From the IMG/VR virus record IMGVR_UViG_3300009068_000230, positions 1-21,105 of that record: DNA of 21,105 bases; one strand, given 5' to 3'. This DNA comes from a virus. The position numbers and the translations under genes were made by a program. The notes under the pieces were generated by a model. That model did not search any database, was not told the DNA's origin, and was given only the letters and a program-made list of their open reading frames with translations. Shown piece by piece: positions 2,804 to 17,729 of the stretch. Position 1 is the stretch's first letter. Each line of letters begins with the position of its first letter.

Positions 2804-2990
2804 TGTTTTGTTTTGTTAAAGTTGTTGTGTATTTTGATAAGTCATCACGGAAATAACGATTGTGTTTTCCAGATGTTTTAAAAGTTCGTACTGAATTTTC
2901 TTGAACTAGTTTTTCTAGTTCAGTTCTTGTGCAGTTCAGCATCTGCATCGCTCTTTGTCGAGTTAATAAGTTAGGGTAGTATGTTTTCAT
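2796..2990 (-). CDS. Small HTH (excisionase/MerR-type) protein between terL and portal
   Basis: The 64-aa product has LTRQRAMQMLNCTRTELEKL followed by a short wing-like segment ending in KHNRYFRDDLSKY, the arrangement of helix-turn-helix excisionase or MerR-type DNA-binding domains. I chose ATG 2990-2988 because it overlaps the TerL stop as TAATG, the same coupling seen before TerL; a start 7 codons upstream is possible but lies inside terL. Its 3' end overlaps the portal start. A DNA-binding protein here could be a packaging cofactor, an unusual small terminase, or a regulator. The HTH call is fairly secure, the role is open. Confidence 0.72.
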   Translation of the reverse strand: MKTYYPNLLTRQRAMQMLNCTRTELEKLVQENSVRTFKTSGKHNRYFRDDLSKYTTTLTKQNNG

Positions 2991-4597
2991 TAGTAAGAGC
3001 CTCCACCCCAACCTTGCAGGGATGTTCTGTTGTTATAGTCTGGGTTCATTACCATCAAATAGCGTAAACAGTCGATAGGGTCTTTAGTTGCACCTTTTTC
3101 TCCGTCTTGTCCAGTCCATTCTTTCAGACAGTAGATTAAATTCTTGCAGTTCTCGCTGATATAAAGTTTTGGTTTGTTAAGCGGGCTTAGTTCTTGGTTC
3201 ATATCGTAACTAAAACCATCGTTGATTAAAGCAACACCTTGTTCGATGCGGATACCAGCCGCAGGTGTGAAGTGCATAGGTTGTTCACCATCATCTAGCA
3301 TATCAATAAGGGTAACACCGCCCTCATCGGTTACAGCCTTAGAGCCACCTGCTCTGGGGTCAATATAACGCTCAAAAATCTCATCTCCGTCCTCTAAATC
3401 AAGTATTAAATTTTTATAATCCGCAAGAGAGCGTCCAGCACCATTACGCTGGGCGATACCAGCCTTTCCATCTGCATCAGCCGCAGGTAAAGCCCACTCT
3501 CCCTCATTTGAGTCTGGAAACTCCCTATAAACAAACATATCTCCGTCTTTAGATACTCGCATCCAGAGCATAAACCAGTTTCTTGCTCCAGCAGGGTCAA
3601 CAACCATATAGTTCGTTCCTTCTTCTGGGACTTGGGTTTCTTTGACAACATTGATTTCTTCTGTGAACCTAGGGAATTGCGAGCCAGATATATTATCTGC
3701 CCATCCGTACGCTCTGATTTTGATTTCATAAGGTTTCTTTCCAGCGAGCGTCTTTTTTAACTGCTCAAATGGATTATAAGGGTTAAGTTGACTATGAAAC
3801 CACATAACTGCGGCTGGTCTTACATAAGATTTTGCTTTAAATGGCATAGTACCACGCTTACAGCCATTAACATTCAAGGTGTCTGGAAGCATTGTGGCTT
3901 CTTTAGTTTCTATAATCTTTGCACCCGATACATATTCCTTAACAACGGAACTATATCCAGTAATAGGTGTAAATGTAACAATAAGTTTACCGCCACGAGT
4001 AACTGTTCGGTATCTCAGCGTCTCAATCCAGTCTAACGGCACTAATTCATCGCACCAAATCAAATCAACCTCACCACCCTCAATAACATCACGCTTTTGA
4101 GCGTAATTCATAAAGAAGCATTGAGACTTGTTAGGCAAAATAAATGTATTATCAGAAAAACCGTTTTTTTGCGTGTATTGCACATTCTGAACCTTGTTCT
4201 TTTTGAGTTCTTTGTACTCAGACGGCAGATACTTGTATATTACATTCTGTTGCATCTGAATAGACGATTGATTAGTCGTGTGTAAGCACCAAACACGAGC
4301 ATCTTTTAAATTAATTAGCGTTTGTACAGCCCTTTTAGCCGCCCACTCAGTTTTTCCTGCACGATTACCGCCAAGCACAAGAAGTTCATTGTTTTCTTTA
4401 AGCAGTTCGTCTGCTTCTGCCCAATGAGGCAAGTCAAAGCCGTGGCGATAAGGGTCAAGTTTCTCTGCAAGGATTTTATCCTCACGGAGATTAAGTATCT
4501 CTGTTACCTTCTCTGCTCCTACCTTTTCAACCAAACGCTTGATATCGTCCTGTGTAGGACTAATAAGTATTGGATGTTGGGTCGGAGTAAAAGCCAT
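2990..4597 (-). CDS. terL: Terminase large subunit (packaging ATPase and nuclease)
   Basis: The 535-residue protein carries both terminase domains. The N-terminal ATPase has Walker A GGNRAGKT (about residues 76-83), Walker B LIWCDE (about 179-184) and a VTFTP coupling motif (about 207-211). The C-terminal RNase H-like nuclease shows MVVDPAG (Asp about 334), ERYIDPRAGG (Asp about 413) and TKDPIDCLRYL (Asp about 509), the expected acidic metal-binding set. It would pump DNA through the portal and cut concatemers. The longer frame begins at a TTG; I prefer ATG 4597-4595 because it forms a TAATG overlap with the previous gene. Confidence 0.96.
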   Translation of the reverse strand: MAFTPTQHPILISPTQDDIKRLVEKVGAEKVTEILNLREDKILAEKLDPYRHGFDLPHWAEADELLKENNELLVLGGNRAGKTEWAAKRAVQTLINLKDARVWCLHTTNQSSIQMQQNVIYKYLPSEYKELKKNKVQNVQYTQKNGFSDNTFILPNKSQCFFMNYAQKRDVIEGGEVDLIWCDELVPLDWIETLRYRTVTRGGKLIVTFTPITGYSSVVKEYVSGAKIIETKEATMLPDTLNVNGCKRGTMPFKAKSYVRPAAVMWFHSQLNPYNPFEQLKKTLAGKKPYEIKIRAYGWADNISGSQFPRFTEEINVVKETQVPEEGTNYMVVDPAGARNWFMLWMRVSKDGDMFVYREFPDSNEGEWALPAADADGKAGIAQRNGAGRSLADYKNLILDLEDGDEIFERYIDPRAGGSKAVTDEGGVTLIDMLDDGEQPMHFTPAAGIRIEQGVALINDGFSYDMNQELSPLNKPKLYISENCKNLIYCLKEWTGQDGEKGATKDPIDCLRYLMVMNPDYNNRTSLQGWGGGSY

Positions 4598-4839
4598 TAC
4601 CAAGCCTTACAACTCCAGTATCGTGCAGAGGTTTTATCTTTAGCAGTAGAACACTTGTGCCTCGCTCGGAATGATTTGCGTCTGGCAGGGATGTCCTTTT
4701 TGATGCTCATATTCTTGTCACCAAAACGGACGATAACAGTTTTACCACCAGATTGAACATACACAGCAGATTTCTTAGCCGCAGATGGAGTTCTGAATGG
4801 TTTATTGAGCGTTACTTTTCTTCCTTTGTATGTTGCCAT
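4597..4839 (-). CDS. Small basic phage protein with RARHKC...YWSC C-terminus, 80 aa
   Basis: The N-terminal part has YKGRKVTLNKPFRTP and VIVRFGDKNMSIKKDIPARR. The C-terminus has RKSFRARHKCSTAKDK then ARYWSCKAW, with two cysteines and many basic residues. I recognise this RARHKC...YWSC ending as a widespread domain of unknown function in environmental and marine phages (DUF6321/DUF5872-like naming, from memory). The basic, Cys-containing end may bind metal or nucleic acid, which is inference. Its stop overlaps the TerL start, so it belongs to the packaging operon. The 80-aa length agrees with what I recall of the family. Confidence 0.82.
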   Translation of the reverse strand: MATYKGRKVTLNKPFRTPSAAKKSAVYVQSGGKTVIVRFGDKNMSIKKDIPARRKSFRARHKCSTAKDKTSARYWSCKAW

Positions 4840-6203: not shown

Positions 6204-6204
6204 C

Positions 6205-6276
6205 TCGGTCTGCTAGGAATTGAACCTAGATTAACCGCTTAGAAGGCGGCTGTTCTATCCGTTGAACTACAGACCG
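6205..6276 (-). tRNA. tRNA-Arg (anticodon UCU)
   Basis: Read on the minus strand the 72-nt segment folds as a standard cloverleaf. The acceptor CGGTCTG pairs with CAGACCG and the discriminator is A. The D stem is GTTC/GAAC. The anticodon stem GCCGC/GCGGT encloses CTTCTAA with anticodon TCT. The variable loop is 4 nt, and the T arm CTAGG/CCTAG has loop TTCAATT. CCA is not encoded. It reads AGA/AGG arginine codons and may supplement the host pool during late expression. It sits at the head of the packaging operon, one base before the next start codon. Confidence 0.95.
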
Positions 6277-6283
6277 AAAGAGG

Positions 6284-6733: not shown

Positions 6734-6761
6734 GGGGCTATGCCCCCCCCCTGTTGGGGGG
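6734..6761. repeat. Two adjacent GC-rich hairpins
   Basis: GGGGC-TAT-GCCCC (6734-6746) is followed by CCCCCC-TGTT-GGGGGG (6746-6761). Both are perfect inverted repeats and they compete for the same C-tract. They directly abut the three GTGAAC-type repeats. No T-tract follows on either strand, so they are not typical terminators. A structural role in replication, recombination or regulation is possible. Confidence 0.5.
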
Positions 6762-6811
6762 TGAACAGGTGTTCAGTAGGTGAACGCTTGTTCAGTAGTG
6801 AACAAATGTTC
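6761..6811. repeat. Three tandem palindromic operator-like repeats (GTGAAC-N4-GTTC)
   Basis: GAACAGGTGTTC (6763-6774), GAACGCTTGTTC (6782-6793) and GAACAAATGTTC (6800-6811) recur with starts 19 and 18 bp apart. Each is preceded by GT, and the first two are followed by AGTAG. The arms GAAC/GTTC are invariant while the central four bases vary. This is the pattern of binding sites for a dimeric repressor or an iteron-binding initiator. Two further GTGAAC half-sites lie nearby, at about 6695 (less regular) and within GGTGAACGGATTTTCACC at 6834-6851. Confidence 0.7.
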
Positions 6812-7072
6812 TTTTAGGGGGAGGAAAGCAGGGGGTGAACGGATTTTCACCTATTGCCTGTCGATTGGGGCTTGTTGAGAATGGATTGAGAACAAGGGGA
6901 TTTGATTGCCGAAAGAGGCAGGTAGGGCTTGGGGTGGGTAGGCGATTTAAGGGGCTTGGCTGGGCTGTGGCTGGGGGTAGGGGGTGGGTGTGGATAGGGA
7001 GGTAGCGGTGAGCCGTCAAAGGGCTGGCAGGGAGGCAACAGGATAGGCAGAACGCTAAAACCGAATAGGCAC
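6812..7072. other. G-rich intergenic region without a convincing gene
   Basis: Together with 6400-6760 this is the longest stretch without a supported protein gene. The plus strand is rich in G runs, with GGTGAA/TTCACC dyad arms at 6834-6851 and a G-quadruplex-like cluster (GGGGG, GGGGG, GGG, GGG) at 6973-6999. Two overlapping minus-strand frames of 75 codons exist, but both are Pro-rich low-complexity readings of the C-rich strand. I see no tRNA or other RNA gene here. A replication, packaging or control region is the best guess. Confidence 0.5.
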
Positions 7073-7122: not shown

Positions 7123-7455
7123 TTAGTCGTTGCTCGCCCAATAGCCCGAAGCGTAGAGGATTTGCTGGGCTTCGGTTAGCAGGTCATTGAACTTTTCGGC
7201 TTCGGCTTCAAGGGCTGACGCTGTGAACAAAACAGAGCAAGGTGTCGCATAATTAAAAACGGCTTCCGTTCCAATTAAGCGATAGACAAGCGGGTTGCCT
7301 TCGCTTTCAAGAGAAGCGATTTCGTTAATGGCTTGCAGGGCTTCGTTTGCCTTCGCCTGTGCCTTCACGAAAGCGTTGAGGTGCTTCCGCAAAATGGCTT
7401 GTTGGCGGGCGTGGGTGAGTGTTGAGGGTGAGGATTGGGTGCGTGTTTTTGGCAT
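7123..7455 (-). CDS. Accessory protein, 110 aa, helical, with T/P/S leader
   Basis: The first residues, MPKTRTQSSPSTLTHARQQA, form a low-complexity Thr/Ser/Pro leader related to those of the next accessory genes. The body is mostly helical and Ala/Glu-rich (AFVKAQAKANEALQAINEIA and SALEAEAEKFNDLLTEAQQ), consistent with a small coiled-coil or helical bundle. No family is recognised and no signal peptide or membrane segment is visible. The gene appears monocistronic, with terminators on both sides (7073-7096 and 7525-7549). The start context (CACGCTATG) lacks the TGTTATG seen in its upstream neighbours. Confidence 0.75.
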   Translation of the reverse strand: MPKTRTQSSPSTLTHARQQAILRKHLNAFVKAQAKANEALQAINEIASLESEGNPLVYRLIGTEAVFNYATPCSVLFTASALEAEAEKFNDLLTEAQQILYASGYWASND

Positions 7456-7524
7456 AGCGTGGTGACTATCGGAAAAGGTGACGCTCTACGCAAGCGAAAA
7501 AAACAGAGCGAAAAAAACAGGCAC

Positions 7525-7549
7525 AAAAAAGCCCGCTTGTGAGGCGGGC
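7525..7549 (-). terminator. Rho-independent terminator of the 106-aa gene
   Basis: On the minus strand GCCCGC and GCGGGC pair around a 7-nt loop, followed by TTTTTT and the conserved GTGCCTGTT tail shared with the terminators at 7073 and 8571. Confidence 0.85.
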
Positions 7550-7570
7550 TTGTTCGGTATCTTGGGCGGG

Positions 7571-7891
7571 CTATTCGCTATCCTCAATAGAAAGCGAGGG
7601 GCAATAAACTACATAGTTCCTTCCAAGATTGTCTATGCTTGCGTATGCTTTCCCGCCTGTGACTTTTCCAACAGCGTATTGGACGGCTTTGGCTTCGGAA
7701 TAGTTTTCGAAGATATAAGCCACGCAAGAGTCACCATACATTCCGCGACCCGAATAATCTCTATCTACACTTGAAGGGCTTGTGTCTTGCATATCGCAAG
7801 CGAGGTCAAGGACAGAGCGTCCTCCGTCTTTTGCGTTGATAGCGTTGAGGGTTGCGGTTGAGGGTGAGGTGGGTGTGTTTTGTTTTTTCAT
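7571..7891 (-). CDS. Accessory protein, 106 aa, with PSTAT leader
   Basis: I chose ATG 7891-7889 because it has the shared CCCTGTTATG context and begins the leader MKKQNTPTSPSTATLNA, which matches neighbouring genes; the longer frame adds 12 hydrophobic residues from the upstream region. After the leader come GGRSVLDLACDMQDTSPSS, DYSGRGMYGDSCVAYIF and a short alpha/beta-looking end. Three cysteines are scattered without a zinc-finger pattern. No known family is recognised. It has its own terminator downstream at 7525-7549 and is preceded by the terminator at 7945-7978, so it is a stand-alone cassette. Confidence 0.75.
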   Translation of the reverse strand: MKKQNTPTSPSTATLNAINAKDGGRSVLDLACDMQDTSPSSVDRDYSGRGMYGDSCVAYIFENYSEAKAVQYAVGKVTGGKAYASIDNLGRNYVVYCPSLSIEDSE

Positions 7892-7944
7892 AACAGGGTT
7901 GAATAAATACAGAGCCACAGGGAACACAAGAAAAAAAAGAAAAT

Positions 7945-7978
7945 AAAAAAGCCCCCAAGAGCGGGGGCTTAATTTTTA
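7945..7978 (-). terminator. Terminator of the 98-aa gene, possibly bidirectional
   Basis: GCCCCC/GGGGGC form a stem (7951-7968). On the minus strand TTTTTT follows; on the plus strand TTAATTTTT follows, so it may also stop any rightward antisense transcript. It lacks the GTGCCTRTT tail of the other three. Confidence 0.8.
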
Positions 7979-7994
7979 GAGGTTAGGGGTTCGG

Positions 7995-8291
7995 TTAAGC
8001 GTTGATAAGTTTAATGAGTTCAGCCGTAGGCATTGAGTGCATTTTTTCACCTGCAAGCGGTTGCAAGAGCGTTTGGTGCTTGCTGGTTGTTCGGCTGTAT
8101 TTTTCGCTGTTGCGATACCATTGACCGTCCTTGAAAGCAAAGAGGGGAAAATGGAAGCCGTAGGAATAGACAGCGTAGGTTGAGCCGTTGCGAACCCCGA
8201 AAGTGTTTGACCCTGTAAAGGGTGTTAGACTTTGGACAAGTTGGCGGGCGGTTGCGTTGTTGGTTGATTTGGTGAGGGTGTTAGTGTTCAT
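7995..8291 (-). CDS. 98-aa protein with YSYG-HFP...QWY...YS-TTSKH motif (unknown-function phage/plasmid family)
   Basis: After a polar leader (MNTNTLTKSTNNATARQL) the body reads FGVRNGSTYAVYSYGFHFPL, then FAFKDGQWYRNSEKYSRTTS and KHQTLLQPL. I recognise the combination of YxVYSYG-HFP, an aromatic QWY segment and YSxTTSKHQ as a small domain widespread in phages and plasmids (DUF8033-like, from memory). Its function is unknown to me. The fold is probably compact and beta-rich. The start has the shared CCCTGTTATG context, and a terminator lies 17 bp after the stop. Confidence 0.82.
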   Translation of the reverse strand: MNTNTLTKSTNNATARQLVQSLTPFTGSNTFGVRNGSTYAVYSYGFHFPLFAFKDGQWYRNSEKYSRTTSKHQTLLQPLAGEKMHSMPTAELIKLINA

Positions 8292-8565
8292 AACAGGGCA
8301 GAGCGTAGAGCGTCCCCTTACAAGGGCAAGAGCAAAGGATAAAAAAAACGGCTCAAAAGATTTTTTTTCGCTTGACTTACCTTTTTTATTGACGGCTGGA
8401 AAAAAGTCACAAAACCCTTGATTTCATTGGGTGAAAACGCTGTCTTATTTGCAGGGCTTTGGCGGGGGGTTTGGCGGGGGTGTGTGATACAATAGACAGG
8501 AACAGGGCAAAGCGTCACAGCGAGGCAGGGAAGTGCCTTAAATAGCGTCTGCCGATTTATGAACA
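8292..8565 (-). other. 274-bp gap, possible remnant of a decayed accessory cassette
   Basis: No intact gene is supported. On the minus strand, CTTTGCCCTGTTCCTG at about 8512-8497 resembles the start context of the 98-aa gene (CTCTGCCCTGTTATG), but with the ATG destroyed. The frame that follows reads a Pro/Ala/Thr-rich stretch (SHTPAKPPAKALQ) before stopping after about 30 codons, reminiscent of the shared leaders. An 84-codon frame at 8318-8572 has no protein-like features. The rest holds A/T-rich sequence before the 98-aa gene, probably its promoter region. Confidence 0.35.
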
Positions 8566-8570
8566 GGCAC

Positions 8571-8594
8571 AAAAAAACCCCGCACTTGGCGGGG
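8571..8594 (-). terminator. Rho-independent terminator of the 246-aa gene
   Basis: On the minus strand CCCCGC and GCGGGG pair around a short loop and are followed by TTTTTTT and the conserved GTGCCTGTT tail. It lies 22 bp after the stop of the 8617-9357 gene. Confidence 0.85.
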
Positions 8595-8616
8595 CTTGTC
8601 TTGGGCTTGCGTGGTC

Positions 8617-9357
8617 TTATTCGCTTGCTTCGCTTTCTTCGTCCTTAGTTAGTTCTTCAATTTTGGCTTGTAACGCTTCATCAAACGCTTGCGTTTGGGT
8701 TGACACGAAATCGGCTTTTTGTAAGCACTCTAAAAGCGTGTCCATAAAGTCGCAAGCCACAGCAAACTCTTTAAGTTCGGCAGGTGTCTTAAAAGTCATA
8801 GACCACGCTTTAACCTCATATTGGTTTATCGGTTCACCTGTGACATAGTGCATAAAATTGCCGTAAGCCGTAAGCAATCCGTTATGCTTTGTTTCCTCTG
8901 TATATAAACAAACTTTGCTCACGCTTCCGTCAAAATGCGTGTGAATGTCCACAAAGAACCAAACCCCGTTTTTCATAACGCTTGACTTACAAATGACATT
9001 TTGAGAGTTTTTGATTGCTTCTAAGACCTTGTTGCATAGTTCCTTGTTGCTGTCACTTATCAGCGTGGAGGTTGGCAACGCTTTCTTAAAGCGTTCCGCA
9101 TTGTTGCAATAGTCCTTAACAAACTCCATCTTAAATAGTTTTTTGCACTCATAAAAATCATTGTGCAAAGAAGTATTAACAACAATGGCTTGTTCTACTA
9201 ACTCCGCTTTGTTTTTCGTGCGTGGCGGTAGGTCTTTAAGTTTAGCAAGCAAGTCCGCTTGCTGTTCTTTAAGAGCCCTTGCTTGCTTGTAAGCAATAGC
9301 GAGTTCTTTAATAGTTGCGGTTGAGGGGTGGGAGGGTGTGGTTTGTGCGTTGGGCAT
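8617..9357 (-). CDS. Largest accessory protein, 246 aa, unknown, with PSTAT leader
   Basis: ATG 9357-9355 has the shared CCCTGTTATG context and starts the leader MPNAQTTPSHPSTATIKEL. A longer frame upstream adds 26 hydrophobic residues, but those bases overlap a separate small membrane ORF. The leader is followed by a long helical, charged segment (about residues 17-105), a central beta-looking part (KNGVWFFVDIHTHFDGSVSK, then VCLYTEETKHNG) and an acidic helical C-terminus ending in Glu/Asp/Ser. Seven cysteines do not form an obvious metal site. The fragment VDIHTHFDG is not enough to call a hydrolase. It has its own terminator. Confidence 0.8.
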   Translation of the reverse strand: MPNAQTTPSHPSTATIKELAIAYKQARALKEQQADLLAKLKDLPPRTKNKAELVEQAIVVNTSLHNDFYECKKLFKMEFVKDYCNNAERFKKALPTSTLISDSNKELCNKVLEAIKNSQNVICKSSVMKNGVWFFVDIHTHFDGSVSKVCLYTEETKHNGLLTAYGNFMHYVTGEPINQYEVKAWSMTFKTPAELKEFAVACDFMDTLLECLQKADFVSTQTQAFDEALQAKIEELTKDEESEASE

Positions 9358-9382
9358 AACAGGGTAGAGATTGAGGGGTGGG

Positions 9383-9502
9383 CTATTTAAGGCAAGCAAA
9401 AAAAGTGCAAAAATCGCCAAGTAAAAAAGCGACAAAGCACAGCGAGAAAAAAAGCACAGCGAGCGTGACGCAAGCGAGGGCTGTGAGATTTAGCAAGGTC
9501 AT
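9383..9502 (-). CDS. Small single-pass membrane protein, 39 aa
   Basis: ATG 9502-9500 opens 39 codons ending TAG 9385-9383, placed exactly between the stop of the 129-aa gene (9506) and the start of the 246-aa gene (9357). The product starts MTLLNLTALACVTLAVLFFS and continues hydrophobic, with four cysteines, ending FFACLK. It could be a holin-like, antiholin-like or superinfection microprotein. The start context AAGTTATG resembles neighbouring starts. Caution: the DNA is repetitive and T-rich, and another frame also reads hydrophobic. Confidence 0.45.
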   Translation of the reverse strand: MTLLNLTALACVTLAVLFFSLCFVAFLLGDFCTFFACLK

Positions 9503-9505
9503 AAC

Positions 9506-9895
9506 TTAAACGCTTGGATTGTTTTTGAGATAATGGACAGCGTTGCAAACTACCCTGTATGCCTCAAAGCGTATTTCAGTAGGGGTATATTGCCCTGTGG
9601 TGTAGTTCCATTTTTGGTGGGTAGCGTCAAAGTTCAAACGCTCGCCTTTGGAAGCATTGAGCAAAGCGGTTGCTACGCTTGCGTCACTTCGCCAAAATAG
9701 TTCCCTTGTGGCTTTATCAAGCAAGCGGGTTTGCCGTCTTATGCGGTTGCGGTCTTGTAGGTAAGACTCACGCTCTCCGTAGTCACGGAAGTCAAGACGA
9801 ACCATTGAGCGACTATAAGCCATTGACTTAAAGCCGTTCACGATTTCGGCAGGGGTTGCGGTTGAGGGTTGGGTTTGTTGGGTTGTGTTTGGCAT
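9506..9895 (-). CDS. Accessory protein, 129 aa, basic, with PSTAT leader
   Basis: The leader MPNTTQQTQPSTATPAEI is almost the same as that of the 246-aa protein although the bodies are unrelated. The body is rich in Arg and Asp (MVRLDFRDYGERESYLQDRN, then RIRRQTRLLDKATREL), followed by KWNYTTGQYTPTEIRF and a helical end. The basic helical centre could bind nucleic acid, but no family is recognised. The start has the conserved element at 9896-9915 with TTTTTGTTATG and no Shine-Dalgarno. Confidence 0.78.
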   Translation of the reverse strand: MPNTTQQTQPSTATPAEIVNGFKSMAYSRSMVRLDFRDYGERESYLQDRNRIRRQTRLLDKATRELFWRSDASVATALLNASKGERLNFDATHQKWNYTTGQYTPTEIRFEAYRVVCNAVHYLKNNPSV

Positions 9896-9915
9896 AACAA
9901 AAACAAGTAAAGCGT
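9896..9915 (-). promoter_or_regulatory. Conserved 20-bp start element, copy 1
   Basis: On the minus strand the 20 bases before the ATG run from ACGCTTTACTTG to TTTTTGTT. The same ACGCTTW box lies exactly 20 bases before the ATG of the genes ending at 10209 and 10700. It may be a promoter -10 region for a leaderless mRNA or an SD-independent translation signal. Confidence 0.6.
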
Positions 9916-9936
9916 AAGATTTAGAAAAAGCGAGTT

Positions 9937-10209
9937 TTATTTTTGCAAGTTTTCAAAGTTTGTTCCAGCAAACTCGCAAGCACTTTTTACGCTGTAAAAA
10001 CAAAAACGGCTAAAAATCCGTTTTGGGTTGTTTTCTGTTTTTCGAATAAACCAAGCACCGCTTAAAGTGTTTTTTTCTATAACCGCTTTAACAAGCGGGG
10101 AAGAATAAAAAGTTGAGCCAATAAACGGCTTTGTGGTTGCGTATGTTTGTTTTATAAAACCAAAGGGAAGTTTGGTTTTGCTGTGTGTTTGTTGTGTGGT
10201 TGTGGTCAT
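9937..10209 (-). CDS. Accessory protein, 90 aa, basic, unknown
   Basis: The N-terminus MTTTTQQTHSKTKLPFGF is again Thr/Gln-rich. The body is basic and aromatic: STFYSSPLVKAVIEKNTLSG, AWFIRKTENNPKRIFSRFCF and YSVKSACEFAGTNFENLQK. The pattern suggests a compact alpha/beta domain with a C-terminal helix resembling the YxTLxxA...A endings of other small proteins in this block (compare YRTLTEAKKALKS in the gene at 10440-10700). No family is recognised. The start carries the conserved ACGCTTW...TTTTGTTATG element. Confidence 0.75.
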   Translation of the reverse strand: MTTTTQQTHSKTKLPFGFIKQTYATTKPFIGSTFYSSPLVKAVIEKNTLSGAWFIRKTENNPKRIFSRFCFYSVKSACEFAGTNFENLQK

Positions 10210-13119: not shown

Positions 13120-13149
13120 CCAATAAACACTATGGTATTACTTGTCAAG
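13120..13149 (-). promoter_or_regulatory. Leftward promoter/operator of the accessory block
   Basis: On the minus strand TTGACA (13148-13143), a 17-base spacer and TATTGG (13125-13120) form a plausible sigma70-type promoter in the 48-bp gap before the 86-aa gene. The 18 bases CTTGACAAGTAATACCAT (13149-13132) are identical, in opposite genomic orientation, to 16695-16712 before the RHH gene. Confidence 0.6.
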
Positions 13150-13627
13150 CGTCAAGTTTAGGTTGGTCGGGGTTGCTCGGTATGTCTATAACCTCGCCCT
13201 TTATCATAGCGTTAATGTCATTGTGGCTGACCCGCAATCTATGCTCAACGACAATGGTGGGTGCGTCCTGTAAAGCCATAACCTTATCAGCCATAATAGC
13301 GATTGCGAGGGGCAGAGAGGCAGGGCTTATGTTATCTATTTCGGACAACAAACGCTCACCGCCCTTTGACACGATTTGGCTCAATGTCATAGCGGTTTGC
13401 TTCTTCCAAGTGCCAAGATTAAACTCCTTATTATCTTCCATTTCGTTGCGGACACCCCTAATGGTTGTGCGGGGGATACCTGTTTCTTTTTCAATGGCTC
13501 GAAGGGCTGTGCCATTTTGTAGTAGTTCTTTTACCTTTGTCTTTTTGTCTTTGGCTAATTTTGACGCAATCCTTCTACCCTTGCTTGGGTTGGTTGAAAG
13601 TCTTTCGGGGTCTGATTTATAATCCAT
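13145..13627 (-). CDS. HTH DNA-binding protein, possible small terminase subunit, 160 aa
   Basis: Residues about 31-61 (KVKELLQNGTALRAIEKETG, then IPRTTIRGVRNEM) form a clear resolvase-like helix-turn-helix. The C-terminal half has SLPLAIAIMADKVMALQDAP followed by TIVVEHRLRVSHNDINAMI. I recall the ALxxGIxxDKxxxLxGxPTxxVEHR pattern from phage proteins of small-terminase type or unassigned HTH proteins. If it is TerS it would bind the pac/cos site, but it lies about 8.5 kb from terL. A role as repressor is the alternative, since it faces the divergent control region at 13628-13682. Confidence 0.72.
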   Translation of the reverse strand: MDYKSDPERLSTNPSKGRRIASKLAKDKKTKVKELLQNGTALRAIEKETGIPRTTIRGVRNEMEDNKEFNLGTWKKQTAMTLSQIVSKGGERLLSEIDNISPASLPLAIAIMADKVMALQDAPTIVVEHRLRVSHNDINAMIKGEVIDIPSNPDQPKLDA

Positions 13628-13787: not shown

Positions 13788-14155
13788 GGTTAAAGCCCAA
13801 AGACATACCCCTGTTAAGGGACAAGTTAGCCAAAGAGCAGGGCAACTTTTGCCGTCTTTGTAGCATAGACTTAAACAAAGTAGTTCCTTGTTTAGACCAC
13901 GACCACATAACAGGGAAGATAAGGGCGGTGCTATGCGGTAACTGCAACGGCATAGAGGGTAAGATTTTTAATCTTGTGCGTAGAGCCAAGCGTGAAGCAA
14001 ATGCTATTGAGTTTATTAACAGGATAAGAAGTTATTGGATAACCTATACTGACAATCCAAGACAGGAAGAACACCCCTTGCATAGAACCAAAGATGAGAA
14101 GCGAATAGCCCGAAACAAGAAGGCAAAGTTAAGACGGCAGAAAAATAAAGTTTGA
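13784..14155 (+). CDS. Recombination endonuclease VII (HNH, Holliday-junction resolving)
   Basis: The 123-aa protein shows the endonuclease VII zinc and catalytic pattern: C23-x2-C26, DHDH at 38-41, TGKIRAVLCGNCN with C51 and C54, and Asn55. T4 gp49 has the corresponding Cys pairs and an Asp40/His41 site, so the fit is close. The C-terminus is very basic (KDEKRIARNKKAKLRRQK), suited to DNA binding. It resolves branched DNA before packaging, or may act as a smaller HNH nuclease. GGAGG lies 12 bases before the ATG, but those bases are also codons of the microprotein. Confidence 0.92.
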   Translation: MRLKPKDIPLLRDKLAKEQGNFCRLCSIDLNKVVPCLDHDHITGKIRAVLCGNCNGIEGKIFNLVRRAKREANAIEFINRIRSYWITYTDNPRQEEHPLHRTKDEKRIARNKKAKLRRQKNKV

Positions 14156-14190: not shown

Positions 14191-14985
14191 ATGAACAACA
14201 CTAATACTGACCCTGCATTTATTGCAGAAATTAAAGACGCTGACTACCGCAAGGCAACAGGACTCTCGCAGTCCTCGCTTAAAAAGTTCATCGTTCAATC
14301 CCCTGCTCATTATTTGGCTTCTCTCGAAGAAGTGCAAGAGCCGACAAAGGCAATGCAGTTCGGCACAGCGTTCCACGCTCAAATGCTACAAGCGAACCCA
14401 GAAGAACATTTTGCCGTGAAGAAGAAGATGGACGGACGCTCTAAGGAAGGCAAACTTTACAACGAGTCATTCGCCCTTGAAAATCAAGGTAAGGTTATTA
14501 TTGACGAAGAAGAACACAGCAGGATTATTGCTATGGCTGACTCTGTTATGGGTCACGGCTTTGCTGGTGAAGCAATGAAATCTTTGACGCACAAAGAGTT
14601 TGCTGTGTTCGGAACAAACCACGGAATTAGACTCAAAGGTTTGATTGACGGCTACAACGAAAAGGAAGGGATAGTCATAGACCTCAAAACAGCCGAGGAT
14701 AGTTCGCCAAGTGGTTTTCGCAAAGCGTGTTGGGACAGGGCATACGCTATACAGCAGGTGCATTATACTTGGTTGCTAACTAACGCTGGCAAACCTGTTA
14801 ATGCCTTTTACTTTATTGCCGTAGAGAAAGAGCCACCTTATGCTGTAGGAGTGTATAAGATTAACGCAGATAGTTTAACTAAGTCGTTTAAGATTTGGGA
14901 CGATGCCTTAGATAGTTTCTTTGTCTGTCAAGCGTCTGGTGTTTATCCTGCTTACTCAGAAGAACCCATTGAATTAAATCTATGA
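14191..14985 (+). CDS. RecE/lambda-exonuclease-like PD-(D/E)XK exonuclease
   Basis: The 264-aa protein has the motif order of the PDDEXK-like phage exonuclease family (PF12684/exonuclease VIII type). It has GLSQSSLKKFIVQSPAHYL at the N-terminus, GTAFHAQML with His62, and KEFAVFG with Glu136. GIRLKGLIDGY with Asp153, VIDLKTAED with Asp164 and Lys166, and QQVHYTWLL around Tyr192 follow. It would degrade one strand of double-stranded DNA to give 3' overhangs for the ERF annealing protein at 16929-17729. The start has no Shine-Dalgarno (CTTTTCCTTATG). The stop overlaps the next ATG (ATGA). Confidence 0.92.
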   Translation: MNNTNTDPAFIAEIKDADYRKATGLSQSSLKKFIVQSPAHYLASLEEVQEPTKAMQFGTAFHAQMLQANPEEHFAVKKKMDGRSKEGKLYNESFALENQGKVIIDEEEHSRIIAMADSVMGHGFAGEAMKSLTHKEFAVFGTNHGIRLKGLIDGYNEKEGIVIDLKTAEDSSPSGFRKACWDRAYAIQQVHYTWLLTNAGKPVNAFYFIAVEKEPPYAVGVYKINADSLTKSFKIWDDALDSFFVCQASGVYPAYSEEPIELNL

Positions 14986-15662
14986 GCGACAACCCAAAGT
15001 TCACAGGAGTCTGGATACCGAAGGAGGTATTTCAGATGGCAACCCTGTCACCCTGTGCAAAGTTCGTGTATGGCATTGTGGACTCACTTGATAACGAAGA
15101 TGGGTGCTATGCCTCTAATGGGTATCTGGCTCGCTCCTTGGGGCTATCAGAGCGTCAAATTCGCAACCTCTTGAAAGAGTTAGATGAGTTTAACCTCATT
15201 GTAAGAGCCGACCACAACGGACAGCGTATCATTCGGACTATTGAAAAGGTAGCCCTATGTAGCGTTTTAGCCGTGTCGGGGGGTGGCAATAAATTGCCTA
15301 GGGGGAGGAAAAAAACTTCCACGGGGGGAGGAAATAAATTGCCTACATATATAAAAGAATATAATAAAGAAGATAAAGATACAAGGAGCGATGCTCCTTT
15401 GGTTGGTAATCCTCTGCCATTTAGTTCAGAGAAGTTCAGTAAAGCGTGGTTCAGTTGGATAGACTACCGCAAGGAGATTAAGAAACCAATCAAGCAATCT
15501 ACCATAGACTTTCAATGGAGACAATTTGTTTTATGGGGAGAGCAGAAATCTATTGACAGCATAAATCAAAGTATTACTAATGGCTGGACAGGACTATTTG
15601 AAACCAAACATTCACCAACCACAAAACAACCACTAACCGCAAAAGACCACGATGGCTTCTAA
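14982..15662 (+). CDS. Replication initiator-like HTH protein (lambda O analogue), carries origin repeats
   Basis: Residues about 1-85 form a winged-helix/HTH domain: FTGVWIPKEVFQMATLSPCA, then YASNGYLARSLGLSERQIRN and LLKELDEFNLIVR, as in phage replication proteins of the O/DnaD type. A linker (about 98-121) has two GGGNKLP repeats encoded by tandem DNA repeats, followed by a charged stretch. The C-terminal domain (KAWFSWIDYRKEIKKPIKQS, then a Trp/Gln-rich helix) is a typical DnaT/DnaD-like tail. The gene is immediately upstream of the helicase loader, as O is of P in lambda. Confidence 0.8.
   Translation: MSDNPKFTGVWIPKEVFQMATLSPCAKFVYGIVDSLDNEDGCYASNGYLARSLGLSERQIRNLLKELDEFNLIVRADHNGQRIIRTIEKVALCSVLAVSGGGNKLPRGRKKTSTGGGNKLPTYIKEYNKEDKDTRSDAPLVGNPLPFSSEKFSKAWFSWIDYRKEIKKPIKQSTIDFQWRQFVLWGEQKSIDSINQSITNGWTGLFETKHSPTTKQPLTAKDHDGF
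15278..15382. other. Candidate replication origin inside the initiator gene
   Basis: Three contiguous repeats of 23, 22 and 23 bp (15278-15300, 15301-15322, 15323-15345) each begin with a G-run. The first and third end in AATAAATTGCCTA; the first holds the dyad GGCAAT-AA-ATTGCC. The second is more diverged, with a GGAA...TTCC dyad. An AT-rich tract of about 37 bp (15346-15382) follows directly. Tandem initiator sites inside the initiator gene next to an AT-rich unwinding region is exactly the lambda ori arrangement. Confidence 0.65.
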
Positions 15663-15924
15663 ACAAGCAGACACAGAGTTTGAAATAACTCACAACGGAA
15701 TAACCTACATCGTAGGTATTAACTACGATACAATAACCATAGATGACTCATTTGACGGACACCTCGGAGGTTATGTCCACACATTTGAAAGTAGCCACAC
15801 GGCAATAGATGAGGACAGCATTGAAATAGTTTATTGCGAAACCGAAGAAGGCGAGATAGACGAAGAAGAAGTAGATGGTCTTGTTGAGCATATCATTGAA
15901 ACAGCAAAAGAGATTGAGTTATGA
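15652..15924 (+). CDS. Acidic protein, 90 aa, between initiator and helicase loader
   Basis: The ATG overlaps the last codons of the initiator and the stop overlaps the loader ATG (ATGA), so it is embedded in the replication operon. The sequence is beta-rich at first (EFEITHNGITYIVGINYDTI, then TIDDSFDGHLGGYVHTFESS) and ends in an extremely acidic helix with about 18 Glu/Asp in 40 residues. It may mimic DNA or bind a basic partner of the replisome, which is inference. No family is recognised. Confidence 0.78.
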   Translation: MASKQADTEFEITHNGITYIVGINYDTITIDDSFDGHLGGYVHTFESSHTAIDEDSIEIVYCETEEGEIDEEEVDGLVEHIIETAKEIEL

Positions 15925-16592
15925 GCGACATTATTTGCCATTGTGGTAAGCGTGGTGCATTGCTCGCTAACCCAGACGGAACGCTTCATCGCTGGCACGA
16001 GTGCCGTGGGCATTTAGACCAAGAGCGTGTTAAGGCAAGGGGACTCACGGACTCTACAATCCCGCCACAGATGCCAGCAATCTTCAAGGACACAGATATA
16101 ACCAGACTCCACAAACGCATACAGGATAGTTTAGATTGGAAGCCAGAGGGCGATAAGACAGGGTTATTATTCCACGGACTAACAGGGATTGGAAAGACTC
16201 GTGGTATTTGGGAAATCGTCCGCAGACTATGGGAACAAAAGACTTCTAACGACAAGCAGTTAAATTACAAGTTCTTAACTATGCGTAAGTTAGAGGGTAT
16301 GATTGAGAAGTCATTTGATGACCGCCAACACGCAGGAATGATAGATAGTCTTATCGAGGTAGAGTTATTGGTGCTTGATGACTTTGGCAAAGAGCGTCTA
16401 ACACAGCGTATGGCTTCCGACCTGTTCAGTATCATTGACGAGCGTTCTACGAACCGCAGAACTACAATTATCTCTACGAACTTTAACGGAACATCTTTGC
16501 TTGAACGATTTGATAACAGGGACAAGGAAACAGGTGTAGCAATGATTAGACGCTTCAAGGACTATTATACCATAGTTGGAATAAGCACTTGA
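15921..16592 (+). CDS. DnaC/IstB-like helicase loader ATPase
   Basis: The 223-aa AAA+ protein has Walker A GLTGIGKT (86-93), Walker B LLVLDDFGKERL (149-160), sensor-1 STNF (185-188) and an arginine pair (210-211) at the usual arginine-finger position. The N-terminus has a possible zinc knuckle (ICHCGKRG, then HRWHECRGH, with Cys6, Cys8, Cys28 and His residues), as in some DnaC-type loaders. It would load the host DnaB helicase onto the origin in the gene just upstream, the role of lambda P or E. coli DnaC. Confidence 0.92.
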   Translation: MSDIICHCGKRGALLANPDGTLHRWHECRGHLDQERVKARGLTDSTIPPQMPAIFKDTDITRLHKRIQDSLDWKPEGDKTGLLFHGLTGIGKTRGIWEIVRRLWEQKTSNDKQLNYKFLTMRKLEGMIEKSFDDRQHAGMIDSLIEVELLVLDDFGKERLTQRMASDLFSIIDERSTNRRTTIISTNFNGTSLLERFDNRDKETGVAMIRRFKDYYTIVGIST

Positions 16593-16908: not shown

Positions 16909-16928
16909 TTGTGTTACTTACTAACGAA

Positions 16929-17729
16929 ATGAATCACGAACTATTACATTATACAAACCCTATGAACCTAAATACACCAGAACAACAAGTCGCATTAAAC
17001 AAAGCCTTAATCAAAGTCCTCGCTGAGACTAAGGACATCGTTGCTGACTCCACCAATCCGTTTCATAAAAATTCTTATGCAAGCCTATCCAAGCACCTCG
17101 AAAGTCTTAAACCAATCTTTGCTAAACACGGACTTGGTATCCTCCAAATGCCTATTGGTGATGGAGAGTCAGTTGGAGTCAGAACAATCATCATTCACAA
17201 TGAAGGTGGTTCAGTTCGTGCAGATGCTCTCATTCCTGCTGAAAAAGGAATGTCTGGTCAGAACGCTGGGTCTATCTATTCTTATCTTCGCAGGTATGCT
17301 TTGGCTTCTGTGGCTGGTTGTGCTACTGAGGACAATGACGCTGAAACTAATCGTGTGGAGTCACCTGTTCCTGCTAAGAATTATGTGAACCTTAATGCCA
17401 AAGGAACTAAGTATATTCCAAACCCCAATGCAGAAAAAGCGGTGCAAGGTAAGGGTACAACAGATGTTGTAGCACCTTTCGGAGACGCTAAGGGAACTCC
17501 ATTATCTGCCCTGCCATTACGCTCTACTGACCGCAGTAAGAAGTGTGCTGACCTTAACTATTGGGCTAACGCTTGGACTCCTAAGCCTTTCGGTGACTCT
17601 GGTGTAATTTCTAAGCGTGACCTGCATACTAAGGCTGAGGCTCAACGCTTATGGGGTGAGGCTAATGGAGATACTACTCCTAAGTTTGAACCAGCACAAG
17701 AAGAACCTGTTGACGAAATTCCGTTCTAA
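16929..17729 (+). CDS. erf: ERF-family single-strand annealing protein with SSB-like C-terminal tip
   Basis: Residues about 15-140 match the ERF superfamily: a LNKALIKVLAETKDIV helix, NPFHKNSYASLSKHLESLKP, FAKHGLGILQMP, GVRTIIIHNEGGSVRADALI and QNAGSIYSYLRRYALASVAG followed by DNDAE. It anneals complementary single strands and would act with the RecE-like exonuclease. The C-terminus ends EEPVDEIPF, closely like the DDDIPF tip of bacterial SSB. The start is uncertain: GTG 16911, ATG 16929 and ATG 16962 are all in frame, and the ERF similarity begins after the last. No separate ssb gene is seen nearby. Confidence 0.9.
   Translation: MNHELLHYTNPMNLNTPEQQVALNKALIKVLAETKDIVADSTNPFHKNSYASLSKHLESLKPIFAKHGLGILQMPIGDGESVGVRTIIIHNEGGSVRADALIPAEKGMSGQNAGSIYSYLRRYALASVAGCATEDNDAETNRVESPVPAKNYVNLNAKGTKYIPNPNAEKAVQGKGTTDVVAPFGDAKGTPLSALPLRSTDRSKKCADLNYWANAWTPKPFGDSGVISKRDLHTKAEAQRLWGEANGDTTPKFEPAQEEPVDEIPF

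Follow-up and report, generated by a model that had tools for sequence, protein, structure and literature searches.

A putative in-gene iteron origin in an environmental phage and its covariation with the recognition helix of the initiator

Results

The linker-coding segment of the replication initiator gene is, with high probability, an in-gene origin of theta replication in the viral DNA analyzed here, as judged from sequence comparisons (IMG/VR record IMGVR_UViG_3300009068_000230; the whole stretch of 21,105 nt is called “the window”). A first-pass annotation had proposed a lambda-type origin at this site, and the homologues argue for it: three dyads, their spacing, and an adjoining AT-rich tract are kept, and the synonymous sites are constrained. 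Lambda has long provided an example of an in-gene origin, and the module is a further case of this known kind. New in comparison with the first reading are the dyads, an argument from their reading frames, the synonymous constraint, the covariation of initiator residues with half-site bases, and the G/C-tract spacers.

The initiator and its gene neighborhood

The features of the module are compiled in Table 1. In the Pfam search, the initiator matched PF13730 (HTH_36) with 38.5 bits (cut-off 25), and no match to RepA_N was listed at E 0.5. The AlphaFold model was built on 50 homologues (mean pLDDT 74.6) and used instead of a poor model from six sequences (pLDDT 56.2). The top structural match of the DNA-binding domain was the N-terminal domain of a plasmid initiator, 4pql (Z 9.2, rmsd 3.9, 88 aligned), and further matches were 4pt7 (Z 8.5), 5kbj (a Rep-DNA complex, Z 8.0), and 4pta. 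Winged helix-turn-helix (HTH) domains commonly give middling Z values, so these matches are taken as supportive only. Direct matches of the initiator sequence to solved structures were weak. The literature search covered open-licence papers in PubMed Central (subscription papers were outside its scope), and none of them described this initiator family.

Table 1. Features of the putative origin module and a tRNA gene of the window (positions refer to the window, unless residues are given)
Feature	Position	Strand	Basis or remark
tRNA-Arg (anticodon TCT)	6204-6277	-	
PD-(D/E)XK exonuclease (exonuclease VIII-like), conserved, upstream of initiator	14191-14985	+	profile matches, neighbor comparison
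O-like replication initiator, 226 aa	14982-15662	+	phrog_678 2e-23, HTH_36 1e-9
Winged HTH of initiator, with recognition helix (residues 57-69)	about residues 14-86		AlphaFold model, confident
Predicted disordered linker of initiator	about residues 100-141		stretch encoded by putative origin
Helical C-terminal domain of initiator	residues 150-200		AlphaFold model
G-tract before iteron 1	15278-15283	.	homopolymeric tracts in homologues
Iteron 1, dyad TGGCAATAAATTGCCT	15284-15299	.	dyad/identity scan, recoding test
Spacer 1, AGGGGG	15300-15305	.	spacer comparison in homologues
Iteron 2, dyad AGGAAAAAAACTTCCA, reading frame other than that of 1 and 3	15306-15321	.	scan, recoding test
Spacer 2, CGGGGGG	15322-15328	.	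spacer comparison in homologues
Iteron 3, dyad AGGAAATAAATTGCCT, frame shared with iteron 1	15329-15344	.	scan, recoding test
AT-rich tract, presumed DNA unwinding element, 37 bp	15345-15381	+	stability rank, synonymous constraint, conserved abutting unit 3
90-aa ORF between initiator and loader	15652-15924	+	homologue in two relatives only (L002, L004)
DnaC/IstB-like AAA+ helicase loader	15921-16592	+	phrog_50 2e-20
Erf-like ssDNA annealing protein, conserved, downstream	16911-17729	+	profile matches, neighbor comparison

The order of exonuclease, initiator, loader, and Erf-like gene is kept in nearly all relatives, and a loader homologue lies 3′ of the initiator at every locus tested except the three most distant ones (L104-L106). 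The DnaC-like loader noted just downstream at first reading was confirmed, with the 90-aa ORF in between. Because of its narrow distribution, this ORF is probably dispensable to the module. No DnaB-type helicase was recognized among the window proteins scanned (a subset of the ORFs of a fragmentary record), and thus the host helicase is presumably used.

Dyads and AT-rich tract within the initiator gene

Three units with a period of 22/23 bp occupy positions 15277-15345 of the initiator gene. A repeat search yielded 92% identity for the outer repeats (15277-15300 and 15322-15345), with greater divergence in the middle copy (about 15300-15321). Dyad score and mutual identity were combined in a scan at spacings of 16-31 bp, which returned precisely 22 and 23 bp. 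The units are 16-bp dyads such as GGCAAtaaaTTGCC, and the three dyads read, in order, GGCAATAAATTGCC, GGAAAAAAACTTCC, and GGAAATAAATTGCC. They are situated, in the window and in the homologues, in the coding sequence between the DNA-binding and the C-terminal domain. The three G-run-led repeats of the first-pass annotation are thus retained in number and spacing, but the G-run is not their defining element: the conserved part is the dyad, and the G-runs are spacers. The unit score of the window is 50, which none of 100 synonymous recodings reached (mean 38.1, sd 3.0, maximum 47).

One alternative is that the repeats are a by-product of selection for the linker peptide GGGNKLP, and indeed the peptide occurs twice in the window protein (about residues 100-106 and 115-121), as had been noticed before. 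However, the frame of unit 2 differs, its product is GRKKTST, and GGGNKLP results from just two of the three units. In homologues the units are in frames 2,0,2 or 1,0,2, and genes with 23/23-bp spacing have all three in different frames (1, 0, 2), which rules out a repeated peptide as their source there. In addition, the synonymous sites are constrained, and the peptide, which belongs to a linker predicted to be disordered, differs between relatives. We therefore regard selection at the protein level as an extremely improbable source of the repeats.

As described in the earlier annotation, the AT-rich tract follows the repeats directly; 86% of its positions are A or T (24 A and 8 T, counted on the + strand). 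No 37-mer of the initiator gene is less stable than that at 15344-15380, and in the whole 21-kb window just one separate stretch of this length is weaker. In the codon frame, the tract consists mostly of purine-A-W triplets (AAA GAA TAT AAT AAA GAA GAT AAA GAT). A hairpin right after the tract (15383-15399) is present in the window and L001; it was not counted as part of the origin because it is absent from L002-L004.

A GC-skew peak near 15.3 kb, which had been suggested as a check, is absent, and the cumulative skew simply climbs across 14-16.5 kb. Skew is uninformative as an origin marker here because the 21-kb fragment contains divergent gene blocks.

Conservation and synonymous constraint

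Scans of viral contigs yielded 54 distinct homologous genes, of which 52 were intact enough for analysis, whereas searches of genome contigs and plasmids for relatives of the initiator returned distant ones only. Two genes (L107 and L108) have an interrupted initiator frame, in which the first stop comes after 109 and 163 aa, respectively, owing either to sequencing error or to genuine decay.

Throughout the intact homologues, three dyads spaced by 22/23 or 23/23 bp are directly followed by an AT tract, mostly (A/C)CATATA. Homologues that keep the linker protein and lose the DNA repeats had been named as the case that would speak against an origin. The opposite was found: dyads, dyad spacing, and AT tract are retained even as the linker peptide diverges. 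In 48 of the 52 genes, the units score higher than every one of the 100 synonymous recodings, the exceptions being L029, L061, L098, and L106. In L029, L030, and L164, units were found only with restricted spacing, with L029 inside the null range, and several relatives (L028-L032, L102) have imperfect dyads.

For comparison, we estimated synonymous differences in 19 disjoint pairs of genes. They amount to 34-43% for the flanking sequence, 22% for the iterons, and 10% for the AT tract, which is under the strongest synonymous constraint in the initiator gene. A residue-matched control gave the same picture: 53 differences were observed versus 96.6 expected in the iterons, and 18 versus 46.6 in the AT tract, and none of 5000 simulations was as low as observed. 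The segment is thus under selection at the DNA level.

Homopolymeric G or C tracts, on either strand, lie before and between the units in nearly all 52 genes. Spacer 1 is a G-tract in 38 and a C-tract in 14 genes, and spacer 2 in 47 and five, respectively. A role of the G-runs as G-quadruplexes was considered and is unlikely, since spacer 1 is a C-tract in 14/52 genes and G and C tracts mix strands across the genes, which argues against a single-strand quadruplex.

In the distant initiators L006-L014 (26-29% identity over whole-gene alignments), the in-gene repeats are different ones, e.g. ACCCAAAAACGGGT or GTGAAAAATCTGCAC; for L009 and L014 the match to the window initiator is confined to the C-terminal part. 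Repeat number differs between near-identical proteins in this set (L007 vs L008, L012 vs L014).

Covariation of the recognition helix and the half-sites

About 50 environmental phage genes keep one layout, yet they use at least eight types of half-sites. The classes are GGCAA, GGAA/GGGAA, GTGCA, TGCAA, TGCGG, TGTA, GGAAG, GCCGA, and (A)NGAAA. The half-sites of the window are mixed (three GGCAA and three GGAA), and mixtures also occur in the intermediates L028-L032, L095, and L101.

For each base of the half-site, the association with 149 non-linker columns of the protein was scored. Residue 61 came out on top for bases 1 and 2, as did residue 62 for bases 5 and 6. All 108 half-sites with R61 carry G as base 2. 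Among the 120 half-sites with Q61, 118 have T or C there, and K61 is accompanied by G in 51 half-sites and by T in 21. At the gene level, all 50 genes follow the rule that R/K at residue 61 goes with G at base 2 and Q with non-G. Within the R61 group, base 4 is A in 14/18 half-sites with S56 and C in 82/90 with other residues at position 56; this rule is post hoc and the weakest of the three. This covariation supports, indirectly, a binding of initiator dimers to the iterons.

On a tree that was built without the helix and the linker, about 10 changes between Q and other residues occur at position 61. Traits simulated on the best tree agreed with residue 61 in at most 40 of 50 genes, compared to 50 of 50 for the real base 2. 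Because branch support is modest, only two independent pairs that test residue 61 against base 2 lie on strongly supported branches, and the best tree contains 10. In the near-pair L077/L101, the helix differs at E57V, R61Q, and L63I, and the half-site changes from GGCAA to TGCA. Between L058 and L096, the C-terminal part is 99% identical and the helix 57%, which looks like a block swap of helix, wing, and linker. Since some switches appear to be such swaps, the covariation partly reflects co-inheritance of the module.

The dyads might instead form hairpins in RNA or single-stranded DNA (for attenuation, translational control, or primosome assembly) and not be protein-binding sites at all. A 5-bp stem with a short loop is possible in each unit, and both dyad arms change together between relatives. 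In K61 genes, however, 17 of 36 base-2 pairs are non-pairing, with G in one half-site and T in the other, each of which is an allowed half-site; the helix residues track half-site identity, and the origin segment had no match to an Rfam family. Hairpins therefore appear very unlikely.

The same covariation between protein and site would be seen if the dyads were operators, with which the initiator controls solely the transcription of its own operon while replication starts elsewhere, and binding within the gene could serve as a roadblock. Yet operators would need neither a strictly abutting, synonymously constrained AT-rich tract nor a conserved neighboring helicase loader. Copies at promoters would be expected, but the window and the contigs of close relatives contain no second iteron array, just scattered single matches (the record is a fragment). 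We consider this explanation unlikely, and an origin remains the preferred reading. One isolated match, GGCAACTTTTGCC at 13841-13853 in the endonuclease VII gene, consists of initiator half-sites with a center of 3 bp instead of 4 bp and may be due to chance.

At an in-gene origin, dimers of the N-terminal winged HTH would bind the three dyads, with one half-site per recognition helix. Because the dyads are spaced by about two helical turns, the dimers would lie roughly on one face of the DNA. This nucleoprotein complex may help to open the adjoining A-rich tract, at which the C-terminal domain and the DnaC-like loader would deliver a host DnaB-type helicase, and the origin would fire.

The initiator family may represent a set of self-labelled specificity pairs with a helix-base code (residue 61 to base 2, residue 62 to bases 5-6, and possibly residue 56 to base 4), and with the G/C tracts as a structural element of the origin; we lean slightly towards this view. 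To our knowledge, joint change of initiator and origin specificity has been studied in few phages; a pairing of O protein and origin specificity among lambdoid phages was reportedly described by Furth and Yates in 1978. The uniform layout with many half-site types, near-pairs that differ by few helix residues, and mixed intermediates make the evolution of origin specificity directly testable. The results also provide simple rules for spotting such origins in uncultured phages.

Comparison with known systems

The module resembles lambda O/ori-lambda in that the origin lies inside the initiator gene, between the DNA-binding and the C-terminal domain, and in that iterons are followed by an AT-rich tract. 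Each lambda iteron is an inverted repeat to which a dimer of O binds (PMC6022878), and the lambda tract has about 39 bp (PMC6022878, PMC7466680). Four iterons are annotated in lambda, at 20, 24, and 23 bp, and they lie in mixed reading frames inside O, as do the units of the window family. However, the lambda iterons have 18 bp, in comparison with three of 16 bp and different sequences here. Lambda O and the window initiator both match phrog_678, 345, and 391, but a direct profile match between lambda O and the window initiator family was not found. The lambda O/P module requires a P-like loader downstream, i.e. phrog_109, which is not the gene that follows in the window. There the loader belongs to the DnaC-like phrog_50, and hence the O/ori part of the lambda layout suggested at first stands, while P has to be replaced: the layout is O/ori/DnaC.

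In SPP1, oriL comprises direct repeats and an AT-rich unwinding element within gene 38, which encodes the initiator gp38, and the helicase loader gp39 is phage-encoded (PMC6316719). The window shares this arrangement of repeats and AT-rich element in the initiator gene together with a phage-encoded loader. In contrast, SPP1 possesses oriR as a further origin and encodes a DnaB-type helicase of its own, and a second array was not seen in the window.

The staphylococcal RepA_N plasmids pSK41 and pPR9 are comparable cases, and the top structural matches mentioned above include N-terminal domains of initiators. In pSK41, the Rep boxes are central in rep, and the origin-encoded linker is dispensable in the protein (PMC5703833). 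The N-terminal domain of the pPR9 Rep is HTH_36 (pfam13730), the same Pfam domain as in the window initiator, and it differs from pSK41 together with the origin (PMC5703833), a block exchange of the same kind as in L058/L096. Both differ from the window module in being plasmids of Firmicute hosts with antisense RNA copy control, and the C-terminal domain of pSK41 Rep binds DnaG primase. By analogy, the window origin would work like lambda O/ori, SPP1 gp38/oriL, and pSK41/pPR9 Rep.

Additional features of the window

Three tandem GTGAACnnnTGTTCA dyads (GAACnnnnGTTC, similar to LexA boxes) were found at 6761-6849, with a fourth, partial one at 6835. They lie in a noncoding G-rich stretch, with the tRNA-Arg gene on one side and leftward small ORFs on the other, and are likely operators. 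Several small leftward ORFs at 7123-10209, in DNA with a strong positive GC skew, start with a similar Thr/Gln/Ser/Pro-rich stretch, e.g. MPNTTQQTQPSTAT and MPKTRTQSSPSTLT, which could be a repeated leader or indicate duplicated small genes. The gene at 13145-13627 has weak similarity to the small terminase subunit, and the large terminase gene is located at 2990-4603, so that the two putative terminase genes are about 8.5 kb apart, with small ORFs between them.
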